Assembly (NCBI GenBank): GCA_011051755.1
Contig: DRKN01000172.1
Location: forward strand, 1-54,412
Length of the DNA stretch: 54,412 bases
Source of the DNA: Gammaproteobacteria bacterium
GTDB taxonomy: Bacteria; Pseudomonadota; Gammaproteobacteria; SZUA-152
Direction of reading: 5' to 3'
The notes under the pieces were generated by a model. It had not been told where the DNA came from, did not search any database, and saw only the letters and a program-made list of their open reading frames with translations. Within the stretch, counting starts at the first letter, position 1. Each line of letters opens with the position of its first letter. Below, piece after piece: positions 15,671-51,115 of this stretch. Made by a program: the position numbers and the translations under genes.

Positions 15671-16183
15671 TCACTGCCGAAGCAGCCCTTCCATCTGTTG
15701 GAAGACCGACTCACTGGCCCACTCTTTACTGCCCAGCACGCGGTCGACAATGCGCCCCTGGCGGTCAATGAGGAAACTCACGGGAATACCGGAAACTTGA
15801 TACCGGTCGCTGGCCAGACTAGCGGCATCAAGCAGGATGGGAAAGGTCAGGTTGAGGCGGCCTACGAAATTCCTGATGCGTGATTCACCACCGTTGTCGG
15901 TGGATACGGCGAGGATCACCAGCCCCTGCTTGCGGTAGGTCTGCCAGAGTTTTTCCATGCTCGGCATTTCCTTGCGGCAGGGTGCGCACCAGGTGGCCCA
16001 GAAGTTGAGCAACACGACCTTGCCATGATAGTCGGACAGACTGACATGCTCGCCCTGCAGGTTTTTCAGGCGGAACCCGGGCGCGGGCGGCTTTTCGGCG
16101 GGATCCAGACTTTTGGCCTGTGCGGGCAGTGCTGACGCCAAAGACAGCAGCAGATATAACAAAAAATACCTCACCTTGGGCAC
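15671..16183 (-). CDS. TlpA-like periplasmic thiol-disulfide protein
   Basis: A 170-residue protein with a signal peptide (LLLSLASALPAQAKS) and a thioredoxin fold: FWATWCAPCRKEMPSMEKL holds the CxxC pair, followed by VSTDNGG and the cis-proline region VSGIPVSFLIDRQG. TlpA/ResA-type proteins reduce cysteines in the periplasm, often for cytochrome c or copper-site assembly. The start is GTG at 16183. It is the last gene of a five-gene cassette, 21 bases behind the cytochrome c gene. Confidence 0.9.
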   Translation of the reverse strand: MPKVRYFLLYLLLSLASALPAQAKSLDPAEKPPAPGFRLKNLQGEHVSLSDYHGKVVLLNFWATWCAPCRKEMPSMEKLWQTYRKQGLVILAVSTDNGGESRIRNFVGRLNLTFPILLDAASLASDRYQVSGIPVSFLIDRQGRIVDRVLGSKEWASESVFQQMEGLLRQ

Positions 16184-16204
16184 CTCTGCCGGATTGTCCC
16201 CACC

Positions 16205-16486
16205 CTACTCCGACGGTGAGGATAGATAGGCATGTACCTGGCTGAATTCTTCTTCATCCAGCGCTGGCATGCCAGCCTGTTGCATGCGTTTCTGCATCAA
16301 TTCTAGCAGGCGCTGCCATTTGCTCGGCGTCAGCATATCAGGCTCGGGCAGCTGGTGGCAGGCCACACAACGTGCCTCGAACAGCGCTTTGCCCTGCACC
16401 TGCTGTTCGCTGAGCCCACCGTCAGCAGCCGGTAGTGTACCGGCTGCGCCAGTCATCAGCAAAATCCCCAGCAATACGTGCCTCAT
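16205..16486 (-). CDS. small c-type cytochrome
   Basis: A 93-residue exported protein with one heme site, CVACH, following a signal peptide (LGILLMTGAAGTLPAADG). MLTPSKWQRLLELMQKRM and MPALDEEEFSQVHAYL resemble small sulfite/green-cytochrome-like c domains in which a C-terminal helix packs on the heme. The axial Met is probably one of those before or in QQAGMPALD. Its ATG overlaps the end of the lipoprotein redoxin gene by four bases (ATGA), which implies coupled translation. Confidence 0.85.
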   Translation of the reverse strand: MRHVLLGILLMTGAAGTLPAADGGLSEQQVQGKALFEARCVACHQLPEPDMLTPSKWQRLLELMQKRMQQAGMPALDEEEFSQVHAYLSSPSE

Positions 16487-17031
16487 GGCAAAGCCTCCAG
16501 AGTGGCGCGCAGTTTATTGCCGTCGAGATAGTCTTCGTTCATGCGCACGATCCGTCCACCGGCATCGATCACCACAGTACTGCCCATGGTGGCCTGATAA
16601 CGCTTGGTGAAACTGTCGCTGGTGGGCACCAGTACGGTGAAGTCGGTGTAACCACTGGCGACCTGGTTGCTGCGGCTGAGGGGCACCGATCCACTGACGT
16701 AATCGACGAGGAAAAAACGCACAGTGGGAAAGTCCGGCACGATGTGCTGACGCATGTGGTTAGCATGGGTATCGCAAATGGGACACCACATGTTGAAATA
16801 AAGCACCACGGCACGGGCGCCGCCCAGTTCAGTGGACAGGGTATACGGCGTATACAGGGTGTCATCGAGGGTGAAGTCGGGGGCGATCTGGCCCACCTGC
16901 GCACCGACGCTGCCGAACACCACCTCGGGGCGTTTATCCTCGCCGGAGGGGGTAAGGTCATCCATCACGTCATCACAGCCAGCCAGCAGCACCAGCGCAA
17001 CCATCATCAATAGCCGTCTAGCGAAGAACAT
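16483..17031 (-). CDS. lipoprotein redoxin with a CPIC motif
   Basis: A 182-residue lipoprotein (lipobox LLAGC) with a peroxiredoxin/TlpA-like fold. APDFTLDD is the usual redoxin entry, FNMWCPICDTHANHMRQH holds the CxxC pair and two His, and GSTVVIDAGGRIVR is the cis-proline region (here Ser-Thr instead of Pro). CPxxC with nearby His recalls SCO-type copper proteins, but the SCO CPxVC spacing and distal His are not clearly met, so thiol-disulfide exchange is the safer reading. The ATG has GAGGTGAG just upstream and overlaps the barrel gene by 14 bases. Confidence 0.75.
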   Translation of the reverse strand: MFFARRLLMMVALVLLAGCDDVMDDLTPSGEDKRPEVVFGSVGAQVGQIAPDFTLDDTLYTPYTLSTELGGARAVVLYFNMWCPICDTHANHMRQHIVPDFPTVRFFLVDYVSGSVPLSRSNQVASGYTDFTVLVPTSDSFTKRYQATMGSTVVIDAGGRIVRMNEDYLDGNKLRATLEALP

Positions 17032-18004
17032 GACTCACCTCGAAGCTCAGGACGTTGGTGACGGGAAAATTCTCGCCCCAGTCGTTTCTGGGCACGGCAT
17101 GGCTGAGGGTGCCCTTGAAAATCCAGTCGCGATCCATGGTGGACCAGGCGACGGTGCCGGCGAGGGAGTTCTTTTCCATGCGGGTACTGGGATCGGGGCG
17201 GCCATCGATACGGCCATCATCTTCTTGCAGATGTGAGAAGGCCAGGGTAAAGGTCAGCGTGTCCATGGATTCGAGGAAATAGGTATACCCCCCGGAAAGG
17301 GTGGCCAGCATGCGGTCACCCAGTTGGCGCCGGGTCGGTTCGACGTAGTTGCCGTAGTCACGATTGACGTTGCGTTCGAGGTATTTTCCGTAAGACAACA
17401 ACAGCAAAGCGTTCCACGGGTAGATGGTTTTTTCCACCAGCAGGTTGGCGTCCAGCCGATAGAAACCCCGGCCGGTGATGTCGAAACTGTTGGCCACATT
17501 GTCGAAACGGGAGATGCCGGTGGGTACGGTGAGCGAGCCACCCAGATAGACCGCCGGTTTCAGGTCGGCCCACTGGCGCACCTTCCACACACAGGTGATT
17601 TTGTCGAAGGTTTCGTACCAGAGATTGAGGGTGGTGTCCCCCAGGCCCCGGGTATTGGATATCAGGCCGGTGTAGTCATTATTGTTCCACACGTAGGGCA
17701 GGATCACGCTGCCCTGCCAACGTGAAGCAAACCGGTGAGCATAGCCCAGATTGATGCGGTACTGGTTGAGATCCGAGTCCTTGGGATCCGGGCGATAGTC
17801 GCCCTGCGAATTCCAGAAGCCATTGTAATTTTCCATGTCCACGGACAAATTCATCACCGCGCGCGAAAACTTGGGCATGATCAGCGACGAGGACGAGCCG
17901 CCACCACAACAGGAGGCGGCCCATGACTCCGGGGACGTGAATGAGGAACCACAGGCGATCCCGGCCAGCAGGATCGCCCGGAGGCTGAAACGGAGTGCGA
18001 CCAT
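17018..18004 (-). CDS. predicted outer-membrane beta-barrel with SCCGGG motif
   Basis: A 328-residue protein with a signal peptide and, right after cleavage, a short Cys/Gly/Ser motif, ASCCGGGSSSS. The rest alternates strands typical of an outer-membrane barrel (INLGYAHRFASRWQGSVILPY, TTLNLWYETF, DANLLVEKTIYPWNALLLLSYG) and ends in FEVSHVLR rather than the usual terminal Phe. The vicinal Cys pair could bind a metal or be a substrate of the two redoxins in the same operon. Its ATG overlaps the stop of the upstream lipoprotein gene (TGATG). Confidence 0.65.
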   Translation of the reverse strand: MVALRFSLRAILLAGIACGSSFTSPESWAASCCGGGSSSSLIMPKFSRAVMNLSVDMENYNGFWNSQGDYRPDPKDSDLNQYRINLGYAHRFASRWQGSVILPYVWNNNDYTGLISNTRGLGDTTLNLWYETFDKITCVWKVRQWADLKPAVYLGGSLTVPTGISRFDNVANSFDITGRGFYRLDANLLVEKTIYPWNALLLLSYGKYLERNVNRDYGNYVEPTRRQLGDRMLATLSGGYTYFLESMDTLTFTLAFSHLQEDDGRIDGRPDPSTRMEKNSLAGTVAWSTMDRDWIFKGTLSHAVPRNDWGENFPVTNVLSFEVSHVLR

Positions 18005-18912
18005 CAGGGCGTGACGGTGAAGGTCTGGTAGTCCTGGCCGGCACCAGTGCCGTCAAGGGTTTTGGTCTCACTATTAACTGTCAGGCGTACCCGCAGGGTA
18101 TTGGCCATGCCAGCAGTGAGCCCCAGCCCACTGATACGCCAATGCCCCTGTCCCTCATCGTTGGCGGCAAGCCAGGTAGTGCCATCATCACTGGAGGCCT
18201 CAACGGCCATGCTGGCCACCGTCAATTCGTAGGCGGTACCGCTGTTGAAGGTCTGATTCAGGTAGGCGGCAGGGAAACCCATCATGCTCTCACGTGCGGC
18301 GATGAACAGACCAAAGCTGTCCGTGCTGGCCATGCCATCTTTAAACAAATAGTAAGTACGCGGCTCATCGGAGCCCGTCATACCCGGTATCAGGTCGGAT
18401 ACACCCTTCAGCTTGGCCATCACGGTATCGCCCATGGTCATCATCACCTTGGGGGAAAAACTGACGGACTCACCGCCAATGACAGCGGTCAGCGCCCAGT
18501 CACCCATGGCCACGCCGTTCATTTCCGAGGCCATGACGTAATAGATGGTGCAGAGATAATCGCCGGCGGTGGTCGCCGATTCGATGCAGTCCTCGTCGGG
18601 CGTGGCGTGATTCATGCCGCCCACCATGTGCATCACGGGTACAAGATTAACCGTCAGCCCCGTCGCCGGCGTATTGTCGGCACGCTTGTCGATGTGCAGG
18701 GTAAAGGTGTTCTTGCCGACCTGTTCAGCCATCGCGCCGCCTGGAATGTATTCCACGCAATAGCTGTCGCTGGCCTTTTCACCACTGTCGCAGGCTGTAG
18801 GGTCATCATCATTATTGGAGGAGGCGCAGGCCGCCAGCCCTAGAAGCAATGGAATCAGACTCAGTTTCAGGTAGGCCTCAGTGCGGGCCGATACAACAGA
18901 CAGACACTTCAT
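18004..18912 (-). CDS. Met/His-rich lipoprotein of unknown function
   Basis: A 302-residue lipoprotein (lipobox GLAAC) heading the cassette. The mature part has a FixH/YtkA-like beta-sandwich feel, with TLHIDKRADNTPATGLTVNL and a Met/His cluster, VMHMVGGMNHATP; more Met-rich stretches follow (MMTMGDTVM, IPGMTG). Such clusters are typical of periplasmic copper ligands, but copper binding here is an inference. Four cysteines besides the lipid Cys may form disulfides. GCGAGG precedes the ATG. The gene is divergent from regB, 182 bases away. Confidence 0.6.
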   Translation of the reverse strand: MKCLSVVSARTEAYLKLSLIPLLLGLAACASSNNDDDPTACDSGEKASDSYCVEYIPGGAMAEQVGKNTFTLHIDKRADNTPATGLTVNLVPVMHMVGGMNHATPDEDCIESATTAGDYLCTIYYVMASEMNGVAMGDWALTAVIGGESVSFSPKVMMTMGDTVMAKLKGVSDLIPGMTGSDEPRTYYLFKDGMASTDSFGLFIAARESMMGFPAAYLNQTFNSGTAYELTVASMAVEASSDDGTTWLAANDEGQGHWRISGLGLTAGMANTLRVRLTVNSETKTLDGTGAGQDYQTFTVTP

Positions 18913-18983
18913 GATGAATCCTCGCTCGGATTTTATGACCGGTAACGAGGTTTATCCTAGCGAGCCACCCACGGCTCGGGAAT

Positions 18984-18998
18984 GTGACAAAGTGTCGC
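18984..18998. promoter_or_regulatory. possible RegA-type binding site in the divergent promoter region
   Basis: GTGAC-N5-GTCGC lies between the lipoprotein gene and regB. RegA/PrrA sites are loose pairs of GCG-rich half sites ending in CGC with a variable gap; this fits only in part. Position and geometry are suggestive, no more. Confidence 0.25.
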
Positions 18999-19094
18999 AG
19001 GGCGCTGACAGTGCTCAGGCATTGCCGGATAATGTCAGAGAACCTCTGGCCGGCTGGAAACGTCAGGGACACCGACCGCAACCGATACCGATCC

Positions 19095-20390
19095 ATGTTG
19101 ACTGCCAATAATCGCTACGCCTCCACGCAACACAACCTACGCCGTATCGCCGGACTGCGCACCATCAGTATCAGCATGCAGATATTGCTCATCGGTATCG
19201 GTCAACTGTGGCTCGGTCTGCCCCTGCCGCTACTGCCGCTGGCCCTCATCCTGCTCGCCCACAGTCTCTGGAATCTGTTCACCTGGTGGCGTGCGCGCCA
19301 GCCACGGCCGGTGTCCGATGGTGAGTTCTTTTTCCAACTGGTCACCGACGCCCTCGCCTTCAGCGCTCTTCTCTATTGCACTGGCGGCGCCACCAATCCC
19401 TTTGCCTGGTTCTATCTGCTGCCGCTGATGATCGCCGCCACCGTACTGCCAACCACCCATGTCTGGGCCATGGCCGGGCTCACCGTGACCTGTTACTCGC
19501 TGCTGATGTTTTTTTACATTCCCTTGCAGCCGGCCGGCGCCCTGTCGCACATGCAGCACGACAGCGGTTTCACCCAACACGTCTTCGGCATGTGGTTCGG
19601 CTTCGTACTCAGCGCCGTACTGGTGTCCTATTTCGTCACCAATATGGCTCGCACCCTGCGCGACCGCGACCGCGTATTGGCGGAGGCCCGCGAACAGGCC
19701 CTGCGTGACGAACGCCTGGTCGCTCTCGGCACTCTTGCCGCCGGTGCCGCACATGAACTGGGCACCCCACTGGGCACCATTGCCCTGGTGGTCGATGACC
19801 TGCTGCTGGATCTCGGTCATAAAAAACTGATGGCAAAAGACAGAGAACAAATCGAACAGCTACAACTGATTCGCGAACAGATCGACCGCTGCAAAGACGC
19901 ACTCTCGGTCATCTCCGCCTCCGCCGGCCAACAACGTGCCGACGAGGGACAATCGCTGCCGGTGGATCGCTACCTGCGCCAGCTCGCGGAGCAGTGGCAG
20001 GTGGAACGGCCCGGCGTCTCCTTCACCCAGCAACTGCAAGGTTCGCAGCCTGCCCCGTCCATGCTGGCCGACCGAGCCCTCAACCAGGCCCTGACCAACA
20101 TTCTCAACAATGCCGCCGATGTCTCACCCGACAGCGTCGAACTACAGGCCAGCTGGAATGCACAGAACCTGGACATCCACATCCTCGACCGTGGTCCCGG
20201 CATCAGCGAGGCCGCCGTCTCGGCCGCTGGCAAAACCCAGTTCAGCAGCAAAAAACAGGGCCTGGGTGTCGGCCTGTTCCTCGCCCATGCCGTCGTCGAA
20301 CGCCTCGGCGGCCACGTCAGCCATCGCCGTCGCGAGACCGGTGGCACCTGCACCTGCATCAACCTGCCCCTGATTGGAGTCCGCCCATGA
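19095..20390 (+). CDS. regB: RegB/PrrB-type redox sensor histidine kinase
   Basis: A 431-residue membrane kinase. Six hydrophobic segments occupy the first 180 residues and contain CTGGATNPFAWFYLL, the GGxxNPF quinone-binding motif of RegB. The H-box LGTLAAGAAHELGTPLGTIA has the phospho-His, DRCKDALSVIS carries the cysteine that corresponds to the redox-active Cys of RegB, and the N, G1 and G2 boxes follow (ALTNILNNAADVS, ILDRGPGIS, GLGVGLFLAHA). In Rhodobacter relatives this kinase reads quinone/redox state. The start is uncertain: in-frame ATGs also occur at 18984 and 19032. The stop overlaps regA (ATGA). Confidence 0.88.
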   Translation: MLTANNRYASTQHNLRRIAGLRTISISMQILLIGIGQLWLGLPLPLLPLALILLAHSLWNLFTWWRARQPRPVSDGEFFFQLVTDALAFSALLYCTGGATNPFAWFYLLPLMIAATVLPTTHVWAMAGLTVTCYSLLMFFYIPLQPAGALSHMQHDSGFTQHVFGMWFGFVLSAVLVSYFVTNMARTLRDRDRVLAEAREQALRDERLVALGTLAAGAAHELGTPLGTIALVVDDLLLDLGHKKLMAKDREQIEQLQLIREQIDRCKDALSVISASAGQQRADEGQSLPVDRYLRQLAEQWQVERPGVSFTQQLQGSQPAPSMLADRALNQALTNILNNAADVSPDSVELQASWNAQNLDIHILDRGPGISEAAVSAAGKTQFSSKKQGLGVGLFLAHAVVERLGGHVSHRRRETGGTCTCINLPLIGVRP

Positions 20391-20932
20391 GCAGCACCCA
20401 CGACAAACCGACGCTGCTGCTGGTGGATGACGACCCCACCTTTTGCCGCGTGCTTGCCCAGACCCTGGAAAAACGCGATTTCGAGGTCTATACCGCCACC
20501 GACCTGGCCGGCGGGCTGGAACTGGCCGGCGACCACAACCCGGAATACGCCATCATCGACCTACGCATCGGCCACCAATCCGGCCTGGAACTGGTGAAGG
20601 GGCTCAAGGCCATGAACACCGACCTACGCATGGTGATGCTCACTGGCTACGCCAGCATCGCCACCGCCGTGGAAGCCATTAAACTCGGCGCCATTCACTA
20701 CCTCACCAAACCCGCCAGCGCCAATGAAATCATCCATGCCCTGGAGCGCCATGCCGGCGATTCCGCCGTACCCGTGGCGGAAAATCCCCTGTCGGTCAAA
20801 CGTCTGGAATGGGAGCATCTACAGAAAGTGCTGATGGAGAACGACGGCAACATCTCCGCCGCCGCGCGCGCCCTCGGCATGCATCGCCGCACGTTGCAGC
20901 GTAAACTACAGAAAAAGCCCACCAGAACCTGA
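20387..20932 (+). CDS. regA: RegA/PrrA-type response regulator
   Basis: A 181-residue regulator with a receiver domain (LLVDDDPTFCRVL, AIIDLRIGHQSG with the phospho-Asp, MLTGYAS, LTKPAS) and a short Fis-like helix-turn-helix, NISAAARALGMHRRTLQRKL, which is the near-invariant RegA DNA-reading helix. The partner of the kinase encoded just upstream, with which it overlaps by four bases. RegBA systems control respiration, carbon fixation and other electron-transport genes; the adjacent cytochrome/redoxin cassette is a plausible target. Confidence 0.93.
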   Translation: MSSTHDKPTLLLVDDDPTFCRVLAQTLEKRDFEVYTATDLAGGLELAGDHNPEYAIIDLRIGHQSGLELVKGLKAMNTDLRMVMLTGYASIATAVEAIKLGAIHYLTKPASANEIIHALERHAGDSAVPVAENPLSVKRLEWEHLQKVLMENDGNISAAARALGMHRRTLQRKLQKKPTRT

Positions 20933-20934
20933 GT

Positions 20935-21510
20935 ATGATGCAGCAGACAACGGATCATCAGGCGATCACCCAGACCCGGGCATGGATCGACGCCGTGATT
21001 GTGGCGCTGAACTTCTGCCCCTTCGCCCGGCGGGAGTTGGATCGTAACAGCGTCCGCTTCAAGGTAGTCCGTGAGGACTCTCTGGAACAGTACCTGCTCG
21101 CCCTGATCGATGAGTGCATCCTGCTCGACCGGGATCCGGAAATCGAAACCAGCCTGCTGATCCTGGCGCAGGATTTTGCTGCCTTCGATACCTTCCTCGA
21201 CCTGCTGGAAATGGCCAACGCGCTGCTGGTCGAGCAGGGCTATCGGGGAATTTACCAACTCGCCAGCTTCCACCCCGAATACCGCTTTGCCGACGCACCG
21301 GCCGGCGACCCCGCCAATTACACCAATCGTTCACCTTTTCCGCTCCTACACCTGATCCGCGAGTCCAGCATCGAACGCGCCGTGGCCAGCTATCCACAAG
21401 CGGAACTGATTCCCGAACGCAACATGGCCCTGGCGCGTGAAAAAGGCTCGGTAGAAATGCAGGCACTGTTGGCGACCTGCTGCAAAGACAACGGCAGCCG
21501 CAAACGATAA
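20935..21510 (+). CDS. DUF1415 family protein
   Basis: A 191-residue cytosolic protein with the family marks VALNFCPFARRE and YQLASFHPEYRFADAPAGDP..YTNRSPFPLLHLIRE (long conserved blocks). The function of the family is unknown. It starts two bases after regA, so it is the third gene of that operon. Cys-Pro in the first block and a late CC pair (LLATCCKD) could be redox-relevant, but this is speculative. Confidence 0.9.
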   Translation: MMQQTTDHQAITQTRAWIDAVIVALNFCPFARRELDRNSVRFKVVREDSLEQYLLALIDECILLDRDPEIETSLLILAQDFAAFDTFLDLLEMANALLVEQGYRGIYQLASFHPEYRFADAPAGDPANYTNRSPFPLLHLIRESSIERAVASYPQAELIPERNMALAREKGSVEMQALLATCCKDNGSRKR

Positions 21511-22304: not shown

Positions 22305-23480
22305 CAGTTGTGTATGTTCTCGCATGAAAACAAGTGTTTTCCCCATGTAACAAGGAGGAACGACTGCGAATATTTACGCAACTATTAATACCTAGACAGC
22401 AGCAAAGGATACAGCTTCATTTCTGAAAAAGGATTTCACTAGCGCCTTATTCTGGGCAATCAACTCCAAGTCGATGAATGTCCTCTCCCACAATGATTCA
22501 CCTTTCTTGAGTGGTGACCTTGCCGTACCCGTCTGTCGAATGTAGTTCCATACCAATTCATCTGGATTAAGATCGGGTGCATAGGGTGGCAGTATGAATA
22601 TACTAAGGCGGCCTTTTAAGCTGGCAACATACTCTTTTACCTTTTTACTCTTATGTACAGGATGGCCGTCCGTAATGACATAGATTGGTTTTTTACGGTT
22701 ACTGATCAAGTCTTTCAAACATTCGATACAAACTTCTGCATTAAAGCGCTCCGTATAAACTCTGTACCAAAAACCGCCGCTGTTCGATAGGGCGGAAATG
22801 GCGTTAATGCCTTGGCGTTGACCACTTGTTTTTACTGTTGGTGTTTGACCTTTTAAGCCCCAGGTTCTCATTAACGGGTCATCTGAACGTATCGATGCCT
22901 CATCTAGCCAGAATATCTCTGCACCTTGTTTTTTGGCGCTTTTTTTGATTTTTGGATAAGTTTCTTCCTTCCATTTCTTTATCTCAGCATCATTCCTTTC
23001 ATAAGCGCGGCGCATCGGTTTTTGTGAGCTAAGCCCTAATCGATAAAGCAAATCACCAACAGCCGTTAAACCAAGATCAATGCTGAACCGGTCTTTGATG
23101 AGGTCGGATACGATTTGCCGAGTCCATAGCCCAAAATCAAATCCGTATTGACGGGGGTCGCCTCCAAGTATCCAGCGCTTAACTTCATCGGCCTCAAAGT
23201 CACTTAGCGCCCTTCCTCTACCGGACCTCGGCTTAGGTGCAAGCGCATCTAGTCCATTTTCTCTTGCGATTCTCAGCCAGCCATAAATGGTTCTATCGCC
23301 AAGTCCATAACTGCGTGTAACTTCACTCGCTGCTTCACCATCAAACACTCTTTGTACAGCCAGCCGCCGTAGAAGATGCTGCTCTTCCGTGGATAATTTT
23401 CTTGCGTCATATTTCATATCTGACATTATCGCATGAATAGAAAGATAATGTACTCTTTATTTCCGACTCATTAGTAGATT
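22300..23480. mobile_element. IS630-type insertion sequence (ends not resolved)
   Basis: The transposase gene plus short flanks. The left limit is put where the HEPN frame breaks and the right limit upstream of the IMPase gene. I could not find convincing terminal inverted repeats; the IS630 group inserts at TA, and TA occurs at both presumed ends, which proves little. Boundaries are approximate. Confidence 0.6.
22392..23426 (-). CDS. IS630-family transposase
   Basis: A 344-residue, apparently complete DDE transposase. The N-terminal part has a helix-turn-helix (SYGLGDRTIYGWLRIAREN) and a second winged region (LGLTAVGDLLYRLGLS). The catalytic triad lies in IFWLDEAS, VITDGHPVHKSK and LPPYAPDLNPDELVWNYI, the standard IS630/Tc1-like D-D-E layout. 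No frameshift is seen, so the element may be active or recently arrived. Confidence 0.93.
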   Translation of the reverse strand: MSDMKYDARKLSTEEQHLLRRLAVQRVFDGEAASEVTRSYGLGDRTIYGWLRIARENGLDALAPKPRSGRGRALSDFEADEVKRWILGGDPRQYGFDFGLWTRQIVSDLIKDRFSIDLGLTAVGDLLYRLGLSSQKPMRRAYERNDAEIKKWKEETYPKIKKSAKKQGAEIFWLDEASIRSDDPLMRTWGLKGQTPTVKTSGQRQGINAISALSNSGGFWYRVYTERFNAEVCIECLKDLISNRKKPIYVITDGHPVHKSKKVKEYVASLKGRLSIFILPPYAPDLNPDELVWNYIRQTGTARSPLKKGESLWERTFIDLELIAQNKALVKSFFRNEAVSFAAV

Positions 23481-49813: not shown

Positions 49814-51115
49814 ATGCCAAATGGACGATCCGTCCTGAAGAAAACCGTGCCCCTGCTATTGATACTGGGGCTTGCCGTCGGCGGCGCCATTCTGCTGGTC
49901 GCCACAAAACCCCGCACACCGCCACCAGAAAGCGAGGAAAAGGTCTGGGTGGTTGCCACGCAGACCGCAACCCCCGCACAACACTTTCCTGTCATCACCT
50001 TGTATGGCCGTATTGAATCGGCACGCTCGAGCCGCTTGACCTCCTCGCTGAGTTCGGAGGTCATCGATGTCCTCTGCAAGGAAGGTGAACGGGTGAGCAA
50101 GGGGCAAGCCCTGGTGCGCCTGGACGAACGGGATGCACAGTTACGCCTGCAACAGCAAAGCGCGGAACTGGCGGAAATCCGCACCCTGATCGCCAGTGAA
50201 ACACACCGCTTCGACTATGACCAACGCATATTGGCGAGTGAACGCCAATTACAGGCCCTCGCCCAACAGGAAGTAAAACGGGCGCAGCGCCTCAAAGAAG
50301 GCAAGCTTGCCGCCCAGGCACGCATCGACGAGGCACAACAGGTTAAATTGCGCCAGGACATCGCCGTGGCCCAACGCCAGCTCGCCGTACAGGATCACGA
50401 AGCCCGCCTGGCCCGTTTGCAGGCGCAACTGAAAAAGGCCGAGTCGCTACAAGCGCTGGCCAAACTCGATATTGAACGCAGCCTGCTCAGCGCCCCCTTC
50501 GACGCCCGCATCACCCAGGTGCCCGCCTCACCCGGCAATCGTACGCGGCCCGGCGAAGTGCTGGTGGAGCTTTACGCGTTGGACGCCCTGCAAGTCCGCG
50601 CACAGCTCCCCAACGCCAAACTGGCCGCCATCGAAACGGCGCTGAATAATGGCCATCCGCTCACCGCATGGGCGCTTACGGGCACTCGGCAGCGATTGGA
50701 ATTGCAGCTCAGCCACCTTGCCGGTGATATAAAACCCGGCCGCGGCGGACGCGATGGTCTGTTCGAACTAAAAAACCCGGCCACGGATCCGGCCATCGGC
50801 GACATCGTGTCGCTGCAACTCCAGTTGCCAGCGGTCGACAACAGCCTCACCCTGCCCCGCAAGGCCCTGTATGGCAATGACCGCATCTACACCATCAGCG
50901 ATGGCCGGCTGAAGGGCCACCGGGTCGAGCGTCTCGGTGAAACGCTCGCCAACAATCCCGGCTCGCCCTTCGATACCCTGTCCAGCGCCGAAAATACAAA
51001 CTGGCTGCTGGTGCGCAGCGCCAGCATCACACCGGGCAGTCTCATCGTCACCACCCAACTGCCCAACGCCGTGGAAGGCCTGAAGGTGCGTGAGCGGCGC
51101 ACATCGGCCCCATGA
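49814..51115 (+). CDS. RND efflux periplasmic adaptor
   Basis: A 433-residue membrane-fusion protein. N-terminal membrane anchor (LLLILGLAVGGAILLVA), first lipoyl half (SSEVIDVLCKEGERVSKGQALVRLD), a coiled coil of about 100 residues, second lipoyl half (LLSAPFDARITQVPASPGNRTRPGEVLVEL), barrel and membrane-proximal domains. GGGAG lies eight bases before ATG 49814. It is followed by its pump gene; the stop is 22 bases before the pump start. Substrate not predictable. Confidence 0.92.
   Translation: MPNGRSVLKKTVPLLLILGLAVGGAILLVATKPRTPPPESEEKVWVVATQTATPAQHFPVITLYGRIESARSSRLTSSLSSEVIDVLCKEGERVSKGQALVRLDERDAQLRLQQQSAELAEIRTLIASETHRFDYDQRILASERQLQALAQQEVKRAQRLKEGKLAAQARIDEAQQVKLRQDIAVAQRQLAVQDHEARLARLQAQLKKAESLQALAKLDIERSLLSAPFDARITQVPASPGNRTRPGEVLVELYALDALQVRAQLPNAKLAAIETALNNGHPLTAWALTGTRQRLELQLSHLAGDIKPGRGGRDGLFELKNPATDPAIGDIVSLQLQLPAVDNSLTLPRKALYGNDRIYTISDGRLKGHRVERLGETLANNPGSPFDTLSSAENTNWLLVRSASITPGSLIVTTQLPNAVEGLKVRERRTSAP

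Follow-up and report, generated by a model that had tools for sequence, protein, structure and literature searches.

The locus treated here raises the question of what a compact set of envelope genes does, and what controls it, when it faces the genes of the redox two-component system RegB/RegA. It lies on contig DRKN01000172.1 of assembly GCA_011051755.1 (Gammaproteobacteria bacterium, SZUA-152; assembly 3.3 Mb), in a stretch of 54,412 nucleotides that was analysed as a whole and is called the window. Five minus-strand genes at 15671–18912, here called the cassette, encode a Met-rich lipoprotein, an outer-membrane β-barrel, a lipoprotein redoxin with a CPIC motif (CPIC), a small cytochrome c and a TlpA-like protein, and face regBA at 19095–20932 on the plus strand. 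The coordinates confirm the gene positions, the divergent regBA and the overlapping joins given in a preliminary description of this DNA: from TlpA towards the lipoprotein there is a 21-base gap followed by overlaps of 4, 14 and 1 bases. RegB and RegA, on the plus strand, overlap by 4 bases. That description proposed a role in copper or sulfur-compound redox under RegBA control. Comparative sequence analysis makes it fairly probable that the cassette is a RegA-activated outer-envelope copper-trafficking module serving respiratory copper enzymes.

A gene-neighbourhood search, which had been suggested as a check, was run and showed that the lipoprotein, barrel and CPIC genes recur together in distant groups. 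A scan of 84,980 species genomes with two short peptide patterns, which is not exhaustive, gave 37 loci, and a class-wide sample of 369 genomes gave 17 matches at E ≤ 0.001. Of these 17, two belong to the window genus, three are weak and twelve are strong, two of the strong ones being also within the 37. The lipoprotein adjoins the barrel in 34 of the 37 loci and CPIC does so in 33, the gaps being contig ends except at L062, and all twelve strong class-wide loci have the full triad. By record title the 37 loci belong to Gammaproteobacteria (including Chromatiales, Thiolapillus, Oleiphilaceae and Thiotrichaceae), Zetaproteobacteria (Ghiorsea), Geobacteraceae, Desulfuromonadaceae, one Lambdaproteobacterium and less well named bins. 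The whole block is conserved in congeners of the window, with the barrel 84–94% identical. TlpA and the cytochrome c were found only in some lineages, so the conserved unit is the triad with accessories; the five-gene unit first proposed holds for the triad, which recurs widely, and not for TlpA and cytochrome c, which come and go.

The link to RegA rests on a short sequence in the divergent promoter. The near-palindrome TGCGACA-N3-TGTCRCA occupies 18983–18999; the promoter contains CTGCGACACTTTGTCACATT, the 17-base core of which is identical in eight loci of two genera, and much of the remaining intergenic DNA has drifted. A first scan of the 350 bases before the lipoprotein gene in all loci, with the core GYGACA-N3-TGTCRC, gave matches with 0–1 mismatch in most gamma- and zetaproteobacterial loci, even where RegBA lies elsewhere, and none in the Geobacter-type loci (the family of G389, with the titles Geobacter, Geobacteraceae and Desulfuromonadaceae; 76 genomes searched, 13 with the barrel). 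A second scan, from 900 bases upstream to 150 bases inside the open frame, covered 58 genomes in which the presence of RegA was determined. Allowing one mismatch at most, the box is found before the cassette in 32 of the 35 genomes with RegA and in 1 of the 23 without it (Fisher 8.7e-12). The value becomes 7.1e-7 when the Geobacter-type family is left out and 5.1e-6 when the window's family is left out too; since related genomes are not independent samples, these p-values are a guide only. Composition-shuffled control stretches had the box in 3 of 290 cases. Control of the cassette by RegBA, as proposed in the preliminary description, is thus supported beyond mere adjacency by a sequence that tracks the RegA gene.

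RegA was scored as present when a protein matched NF033791 at E ≤ 1e-28 or with at least about 140 bits; these thresholds of our own were used because every response regulator matches the family weakly and none here reaches the curated cut-off. The test was given 62 genomes, of which 4 were dropped for short upstream DNA (L085, L089, L037 and L120). It left out L049, whose RegA status was not looked up, L050/G557 and L140/G492, whose contigs have no lipoprotein region, and presumed second copies of the same genome (e.g. L039/L022, L040/L023, L046/L089, L052/L122 and L053/L123, as well as L055/L133, L057/L120, L058/L127 and L059/L091). L030 was counted as boxless, since its stop-to-stop frame overruns the promoter, though an alignment shows the box; with this corrected, the count is 33 of 35. 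For G503, RegA was scored as present from a contig-end fragment with no full match, and recoding it gives 31 of 34 against 2 of 24. The lipoprotein start of G504, at a contig end, was placed by hand.

The exact 17-base box is rare. It occurs once each in the window assembly and its six congeners, G000–G006, and in G009, always in the cassette promoter. G014 has regBA and the cassette on separate contigs and two exact copies, one upstream of each. In all there are 46 exact sites in 35 of 89 genomes, at most two per genome, and a reversed control pattern had matches in 3 genomes in the same search. When the sites were assigned to genes by eye, 23 precede the cassette (some in a promoter shared with regBA), five precede regB without the cassette (some shared with another divergent gene) and four precede copper genes, namely a PCuAC-Sco pair (G552), a Sco-containing pair (G395) and nosRZ (G551 and G159).

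These sites also bear on whether the box might belong to a third regulator that travels with RegA genes, RegBA and the cassette being separate targets of it. The genomes G547, G007, G030 and G549 have an exact copy each and no RegA, and published RegA-type operators have been described as degenerate and unlike one another, while in Acidithiobacillus no motif could be predicted (PMC5506826; the papers cited here by PMC number are represented by excerpts). A third regulator nevertheless seems unlikely. Presence of the box upstream of the cassette follows that of the RegA gene, and an exact copy stands before regB itself in G014, G224, G159, G366 and G477, as autoregulation predicts. There is also a likeness to the RegR box of Bradyrhizobium, GNGRCRTTNNGNCGC, quoted in PMC5506826, which L082 fits by eye at 15 of 15 positions and L035 and L038 at 14. 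The cassette promoters of L022, L023 and L042 appear by eye to have two overlapping boxes (e.g. TGCGACATAATGTCGCG then GCGACGCTATGTCAC), and RegA may accordingly bind them as two dimers.

The geometry of the promoter is consistent with activation by RegA. In 27 of 34 loci (18 of 24 without near copies) the start of a -10-like TA...T hexamer is exactly 23 bases from the box, the next best offset being found in 4 of 34. This spacing would put the centre of the box near -44 of the cassette promoter, a position typical of a polymerase-contacting activator. On the other strand the promoter-like pair CTGACA-17-GATAAT begins after a gap of five bases from the box, in keeping with autoregulation of regBA. 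The most likely RegB start is the ATG at 19095, because homology in some congeners ends just upstream, and 182 bases of intergenic DNA (18913–19094) therefore separate the divergent starts.

Adjacency of RegBA and the cassette is recurrent, not general. RegBA or RegA lies within 6.5 kb of the cassette in 10 of the 37 loci: six of the window genus, L033 (divergent), L031 and L035 (downstream) and L048 (RegA upstream, at a contig end). Of the 12 Zetaproteobacteria with the barrel, 7 have RegBA next to the cassette, G504 being judged at a contig end and G503 from the RegA fragment; the arrangements are divergent, upstream and downstream, the last with Csp1 between. The preliminary description had counted a cassette found mostly without RegBA against its proposal. 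Adjacency is indeed limited by lineage, but 17 of the 32 box-bearing genomes with RegA have no RegBA within 6.5 kb, and since the box is retained there, non-adjacency does not refute regulation.

The two regulators are of the expected kind. That RegB combines the quinone motif with the redox cysteine, as had been described, was borne out: GGATNPF, HELGTPL and the dimer-helix cysteine (IDRCKDAL) are all present, and this cysteine is found in 12 of 13 aligned RegB proteins. The window RegB appears to be a RegB-type kinase outside the curated equivalog, because this is its best-scoring family and its score, 247 bits, stays below the NCBIfam equivalog cut-off of 350. RegA consists of a receiver and a Fis-type helix-turn-helix domain and has the NCBIfam RegA family as its best match, at 190 bits against a curated cut-off of 250.

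Copper is the best-supported substrate, because the core recurs beside genes for NosL, a Csp1-type protein or Sco. In all 13 barrel genomes of the Geobacter-type family the gene after CPIC encodes NosL (local profile) and lies less than 1 kb downstream from the barrel gene, and NosL is also found beside L037, L047 and L061 (Pfam NosL 5e-10 for L047 and 9.8e-14 for L061). A search of 78 zetaproteobacterial genomes found the barrel in 12, and in 5 of these a Csp1-type copper-storage gene belongs to the gene run of the cassette, one of the encoded proteins matching TIGR04401 at 3.1e-35 and Csp1 in the PDB at 1.2e-12; in L049 (Thiolapillus) such a gene is divergent. L056 has a Sco gene upstream (Pfam 1e-22). 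The copper role suggested in the preliminary description is supported by these neighbours together with the conserved Met, Cys and His residues described below. As a separate observation, a Cys-rich exported protein of no Pfam family (GECSGDC...DGCS..R...HTCCCW) precedes the triad in 10 of the 13 Geobacter-type loci (e.g. L056:5474-6097).

The same neighbours bear on whether copper would be supplied or warded off. A defence module would export, buffer or store excess periplasmic copper and be switched on in reduced conditions, when Cu(I) is most toxic; the Csp1-type store in the zetaproteobacterial gene runs and the marine or vent samples suggested by some record titles are in line with this. 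Supply is favoured because of the genes that share the box, those of known copper function (PCuAC-Sco, Sco and nosRZ) serving to supply enzymes. The Geobacter-type copies have NosL, and a look through the recurrent neighbour families, made without profile searches for such genes, brought no CopA, CusA or CueR-type gene to notice. Defence is accordingly rather doubtful. For the sulfur-compound role nothing was found in support: no sulfur gene (sox, dsr or sqr) was noticed in those neighbour lists that were read, which were not searched by profile, and the Geobacter-type family has the module with NosL. Some hosts are sulfur oxidisers by record title (Thiolapillus, Thiotrichaceae), and RegA of Acidithiobacillus binds promoters of sulfur-oxidation genes (PMC5506826), yet a function in thiosulfate or sulfide redox seems extremely unlikely.

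CPIC has residues suited to a metal. C83, C86, H89, M149 and G150 are invariant in 30 of 30 sequences; the profile aligns with TlpA/ResA, and Met-Gly replaces x-cisPro in all 30, a pattern repeated in a larger set of 62 sequences with that Met at 98%. In metal-binding thioredoxin folds such as Sco the cis-proline is lost and soft ligands lie nearby, and we infer from the sequences that CPIC carries a Cu(I) site. Like Sco1/SenC it would combine a thioredoxin fold, two cysteines, a lost cis-proline and a soft-ligand residue near that loop. Judged by its motif it is not a Sco, since it has CPxC with a His three residues on instead of CxxxC, and a loop Met instead of the distal His; its profile match to a Sco is weak. 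TlpA, by contrast with CPIC, is a standard ResA/TlpA, with C66, P68, C69 and P134 invariant in 11 of 11 sequences and W65 nearly so. Two thioredoxin-fold proteins and a cytochrome c could suggest that the cassette handles thiols and disulfides of envelope proteins or in cytochrome c maturation, with no metal cargo and with Met richness as an antioxidant. This is quite improbable: TlpA and the cytochrome are dispensable and the Met-rich lipoprotein is not, CPIC lacks the cis-proline that ordinary disulfide thioredoxins keep, and the neighbours are NosL, Csp1 and Sco.

The lipoprotein had been called Met/His-rich; the mature protein is Met-rich (6.3% Met) and not His-rich (1.5% His). Its AlphaFold model has two Ig/FnIII-like domains (pLDDT 88), and in the first of these M94, M96 and M127 are kept in 33 of 33 sequences and H102 and M136 in 32. 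In most relatives it is about 540 residues long, compared with 302 in the window, the additional N-terminal module there giving a weak match of the carboxypeptidase-regulatory-like kind. Neither this protein nor the barrel has a Pfam or NCBIfam family above cut-off. The match of the lipoprotein to Pfam YtkA is below threshold (0.063; 14.4 bits against a gathering score of 25.9), and its profile found nothing among PDB sequences at E up to 1. Structural relatives were uninformative, Foldseek giving generic Ig chains and VIA-align Z scores of at most 9.4 to filamin and adhesin Ig domains, a common arrangement. It resembles YtkA/FixH-type proteins in its predicted Ig-like fold with Met and His residues and differs from them in its second Ig/FnIII-like domain and, elsewhere, in the extra N-terminal module. 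Between the window and G001 (L015), RegBA, barrel, CPIC, cytochrome and TlpA are 93–98% identical, and the lipoprotein, of the long form in L015, is only 48% identical; the lipoproteins of the congeners L017, L018 and L021 match the short one of the window at 64–89%. From the sequences this looks like allelic replacement of a single gene within a conserved operon.

The barrel carries SCCGGG in 34 of 34 relatives. Its AlphaFold model is confident (pLDDT 85), with Foldseek matches to FapF (7.8e-17) and Pput2725 (2.5e-13), TM-scores of 0.59–0.67 by model length and 14–17% identity. By profile the match to FapF is weak (E 0.04), and there is no Pfam match to Phenol_MetA_deg. The predicted fold superposes on FapF/COG4313 channels, from which the protein differs in its SCCGGG N-terminus, and no amyloid or phenol-degradation gene was noticed alongside. 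Lipidation at the SCC cysteines was considered, since AAS-C fits a loose lipobox; the preceding small-x-Ala looks more like ordinary signal-peptidase cleavage. The barrel had no match among 72,556 plasmid records. Another barrel rich in Met and His belongs to the Phenol_MetA_deg family. In L194 its gene and regB diverge, with the box between them, in L193 there is a broken-looking relative, and at L035:12052-13086 it comes after regBA; it may be another RegA-linked envelope copper gene.

Several observations weigh against a RegA-activated copper module, in addition to the relatedness of the genomes compared. Before the cassette the box is missing in two Zetaproteobacteria with RegA (G477 and G491) and present in G547, which lacks RegA and is of unknown completeness; the exact sites of G007, G030 and G549 lie away from any cassette. 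The remaining 14 of the 46 exact sites adjoin genes for which no copper link is known, or no clear gene; their neighbours include a Tll0287-like haem protein (G327) and a look-alike (G225), two unassigned exported-looking proteins, a TetR gene and others. Nine relatives that have RegA without the cassette have no exact 17-base box, so RegA targets there must use other or looser sites, and the window copy fits the quoted RegR box at only 13 of 15 positions. None of the 12 class-wide loci has RegBA within 6.5 kb, regBA being about 8 kb away on the same contig in G224 (L080). In R. capsulatus RegA binds copper and a copper-stimulated disulfide forms at Cys156 (PMC9147068); the window RegA has Asn at this position (KVLMENDGN against the quoted VYELCDR, aligned by eye), and among 14 aligned RegA proteins only L031 and L130 have Cys there, so copper sensing of the R. 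capsulatus type through Cys156 was ruled out for the window. Finally, the window genome has three Sco matches above cut-off and no NosZ above cut-off, and the locus itself has no Sco, and the copper recipient in this genome is therefore a guess; CuA- or cbb3-type oxidases are possible customers. The Tll0287-like gene and its look-alike mentioned above, each with an exact box before it, are at L184:3386-3940 (Pfam) and L186:2611-3168 (by eye), and the two genomes belong to one genus.

What makes a RegA-activated copper module the best explanation all the same is the evidence given above taken together with the likeness to the RegR box and two published links. In group 1, regA and/or regB is cotranscribed with the copper protein gene senC (PMC9147068), and RegA acts on nosZ, as a repressor in R. 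capsulatus (PMC5359404) and as an activator in B. pseudomallei (PMC8191878). The module might then work as follows. RegB would sense the reduced quinone pool at low oxygen and phosphorylate RegA, which would bind the box as an activator, just upstream of both the cassette -10 region and, on the opposite strand, the regB promoter. Expression of the cassette would then place into the outer membrane a FapF/COG4313-like channel with a vicinal cysteine pair at its mature N-terminus, joined by the Met-rich Ig-fold lipoprotein and by the thioredoxin-fold CPIC lipoprotein with its plausible Cu(I) site. Cu(I) would be taken up or relayed over Met, Cys and redoxin sites to chaperones of the Sco, PCuAC or NosL type and end in respiratory enzymes, possibly the CuA or cbb3 oxidases here and N2O reductase in relatives. 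In the lineages that have them, TlpA and the small cytochrome c would probably keep the thiols reduced and dispose of the electrons.

Comparison with known systems shows both likeness and difference. As in Rhodobacter senC-regA/regB (group 1), redox two-component genes stand beside a copper-tied envelope thioredoxin-fold protein (PMC9147068). Unlike that arrangement, the locus has the barrel, the Met-rich lipoprotein and CPIC and no Sco/SenC: no Sco was found among 10 scanned proteins around regBA, and TlpA gave only a sub-threshold SCO1-SenC match. The Rhodobacter RegA, moreover, would act on a broad set of loose sites, compared with one exact box in the window genome, and has the Cys156 that the window RegA lacks. 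The pcuABCDE copper-acquisition operon of Bradyrhizobium brings together an outer-membrane protein, periplasmic copper proteins and a Sco/thioredoxin-type protein. The cassette likewise joins an outer-membrane protein with proposed periplasmic copper proteins in one operon; its barrel is not a TonB receptor, it contains no PCuAC or Sco, and its proposed regulation is by RegA, not by copper starvation alone. No description of the cassette or of the box was found in the open-licence literature among the matches listed. RegBA, the thioredoxin fold, the COG4313-type channel and the Ig lipoprotein are of known kinds; as far as limited searches show, the gene combination, the CPxCxxH redoxin without cis-proline and the sharp RegA box are new.

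Table 1. Genes and promoter elements of the cassette-regBA locus in the window
Feature	Position	Strand	Basis
TlpA/ResA-like thiol-disulfide protein; optional member	15671-16183	minus	WCAPC and cis-Pro kept; Pfam AhpC-TSA 4.4e-30; NCBIfam ResA 1.5e-38, below its cut-off
Small one-haem cytochrome c (CVACH), 93 residues; optional member	16205-16486	minus	Pfam Cytochrom_C 8.2e-06
CPIC lipoprotein redoxin; core member	16483-17031	minus	Lipobox LLAGC; C83-P-x-C86-x2-H89; M149-G150
Outer-membrane β-barrel; core member	17018-18004	minus	SCCGGG right after signal peptide; FapF/COG4313-like channel fold (predicted)
Met-rich lipoprotein, 302-residue short form; core member	18004-18912	minus	Ig-like domain with conserved Met/His
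-10-like hexamer TAGGAT of cassette promoter	18954-18959	minus	Starts 23 bases after box
Candidate RegA operator TGTGACAAAGTGTCGCA (reverse strand TGCGACACTTTGTCACA)	18983-18999		Only exact copy in assembly
regB promoter-like pair CTGACA-17-GATAAT	19005-19033	plus	Both hexamers within conserved blocks of 8-locus intergenic alignment
RegB/PrrB/ActS-type sensor kinase	19095-20390 (probable start; frame open from 18984)	plus	NCBIfam NF033792 2.7e-73, below cut-off
RegA/PrrA/ActR-type response regulator	20387-20932	plus	NCBIfam NF033791 4.2e-56, below cut-off

Three further features of the window lie beyond these genes. A DUF1415 gene at 20935-21510 follows regA after a two-base gap and is possibly cotranscribed with it; it is kept as a neighbour in congeners with long enough contigs and in L019/L033. 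Just outside the locus, at 22392-23426, is a transposase gene with DDE_3 and winged-helix domains, which we take to be IS630-like. ARAGORN calls a tmRNA with an odd GC-rich tag at 50252-50671 on the minus strand; a long open frame overlaps it, and the call is probably spurious.

How copper passes across and out of the outer envelope to respiratory enzymes is, to our knowledge, poorly known. More tentatively than for the cassette itself, RegBA in many cassette-bearing Gamma- and Zetaproteobacteria could head a tiny and sharp regulon of one or two operators per genome, instead of being a broad global regulator that uses degenerate sites, and these operators could drive the envelope copper relay together with PCuAC/Sco and N2O reductase, so that the state of the quinone pool would gate respiratory copper supply. 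The rare 17-base box predicts candidate RegA targets and marks among them an undescribed three-gene envelope system; if the proposed regulation is true, a redox sensor would switch on the cassette even where the two sit far apart in the genome.

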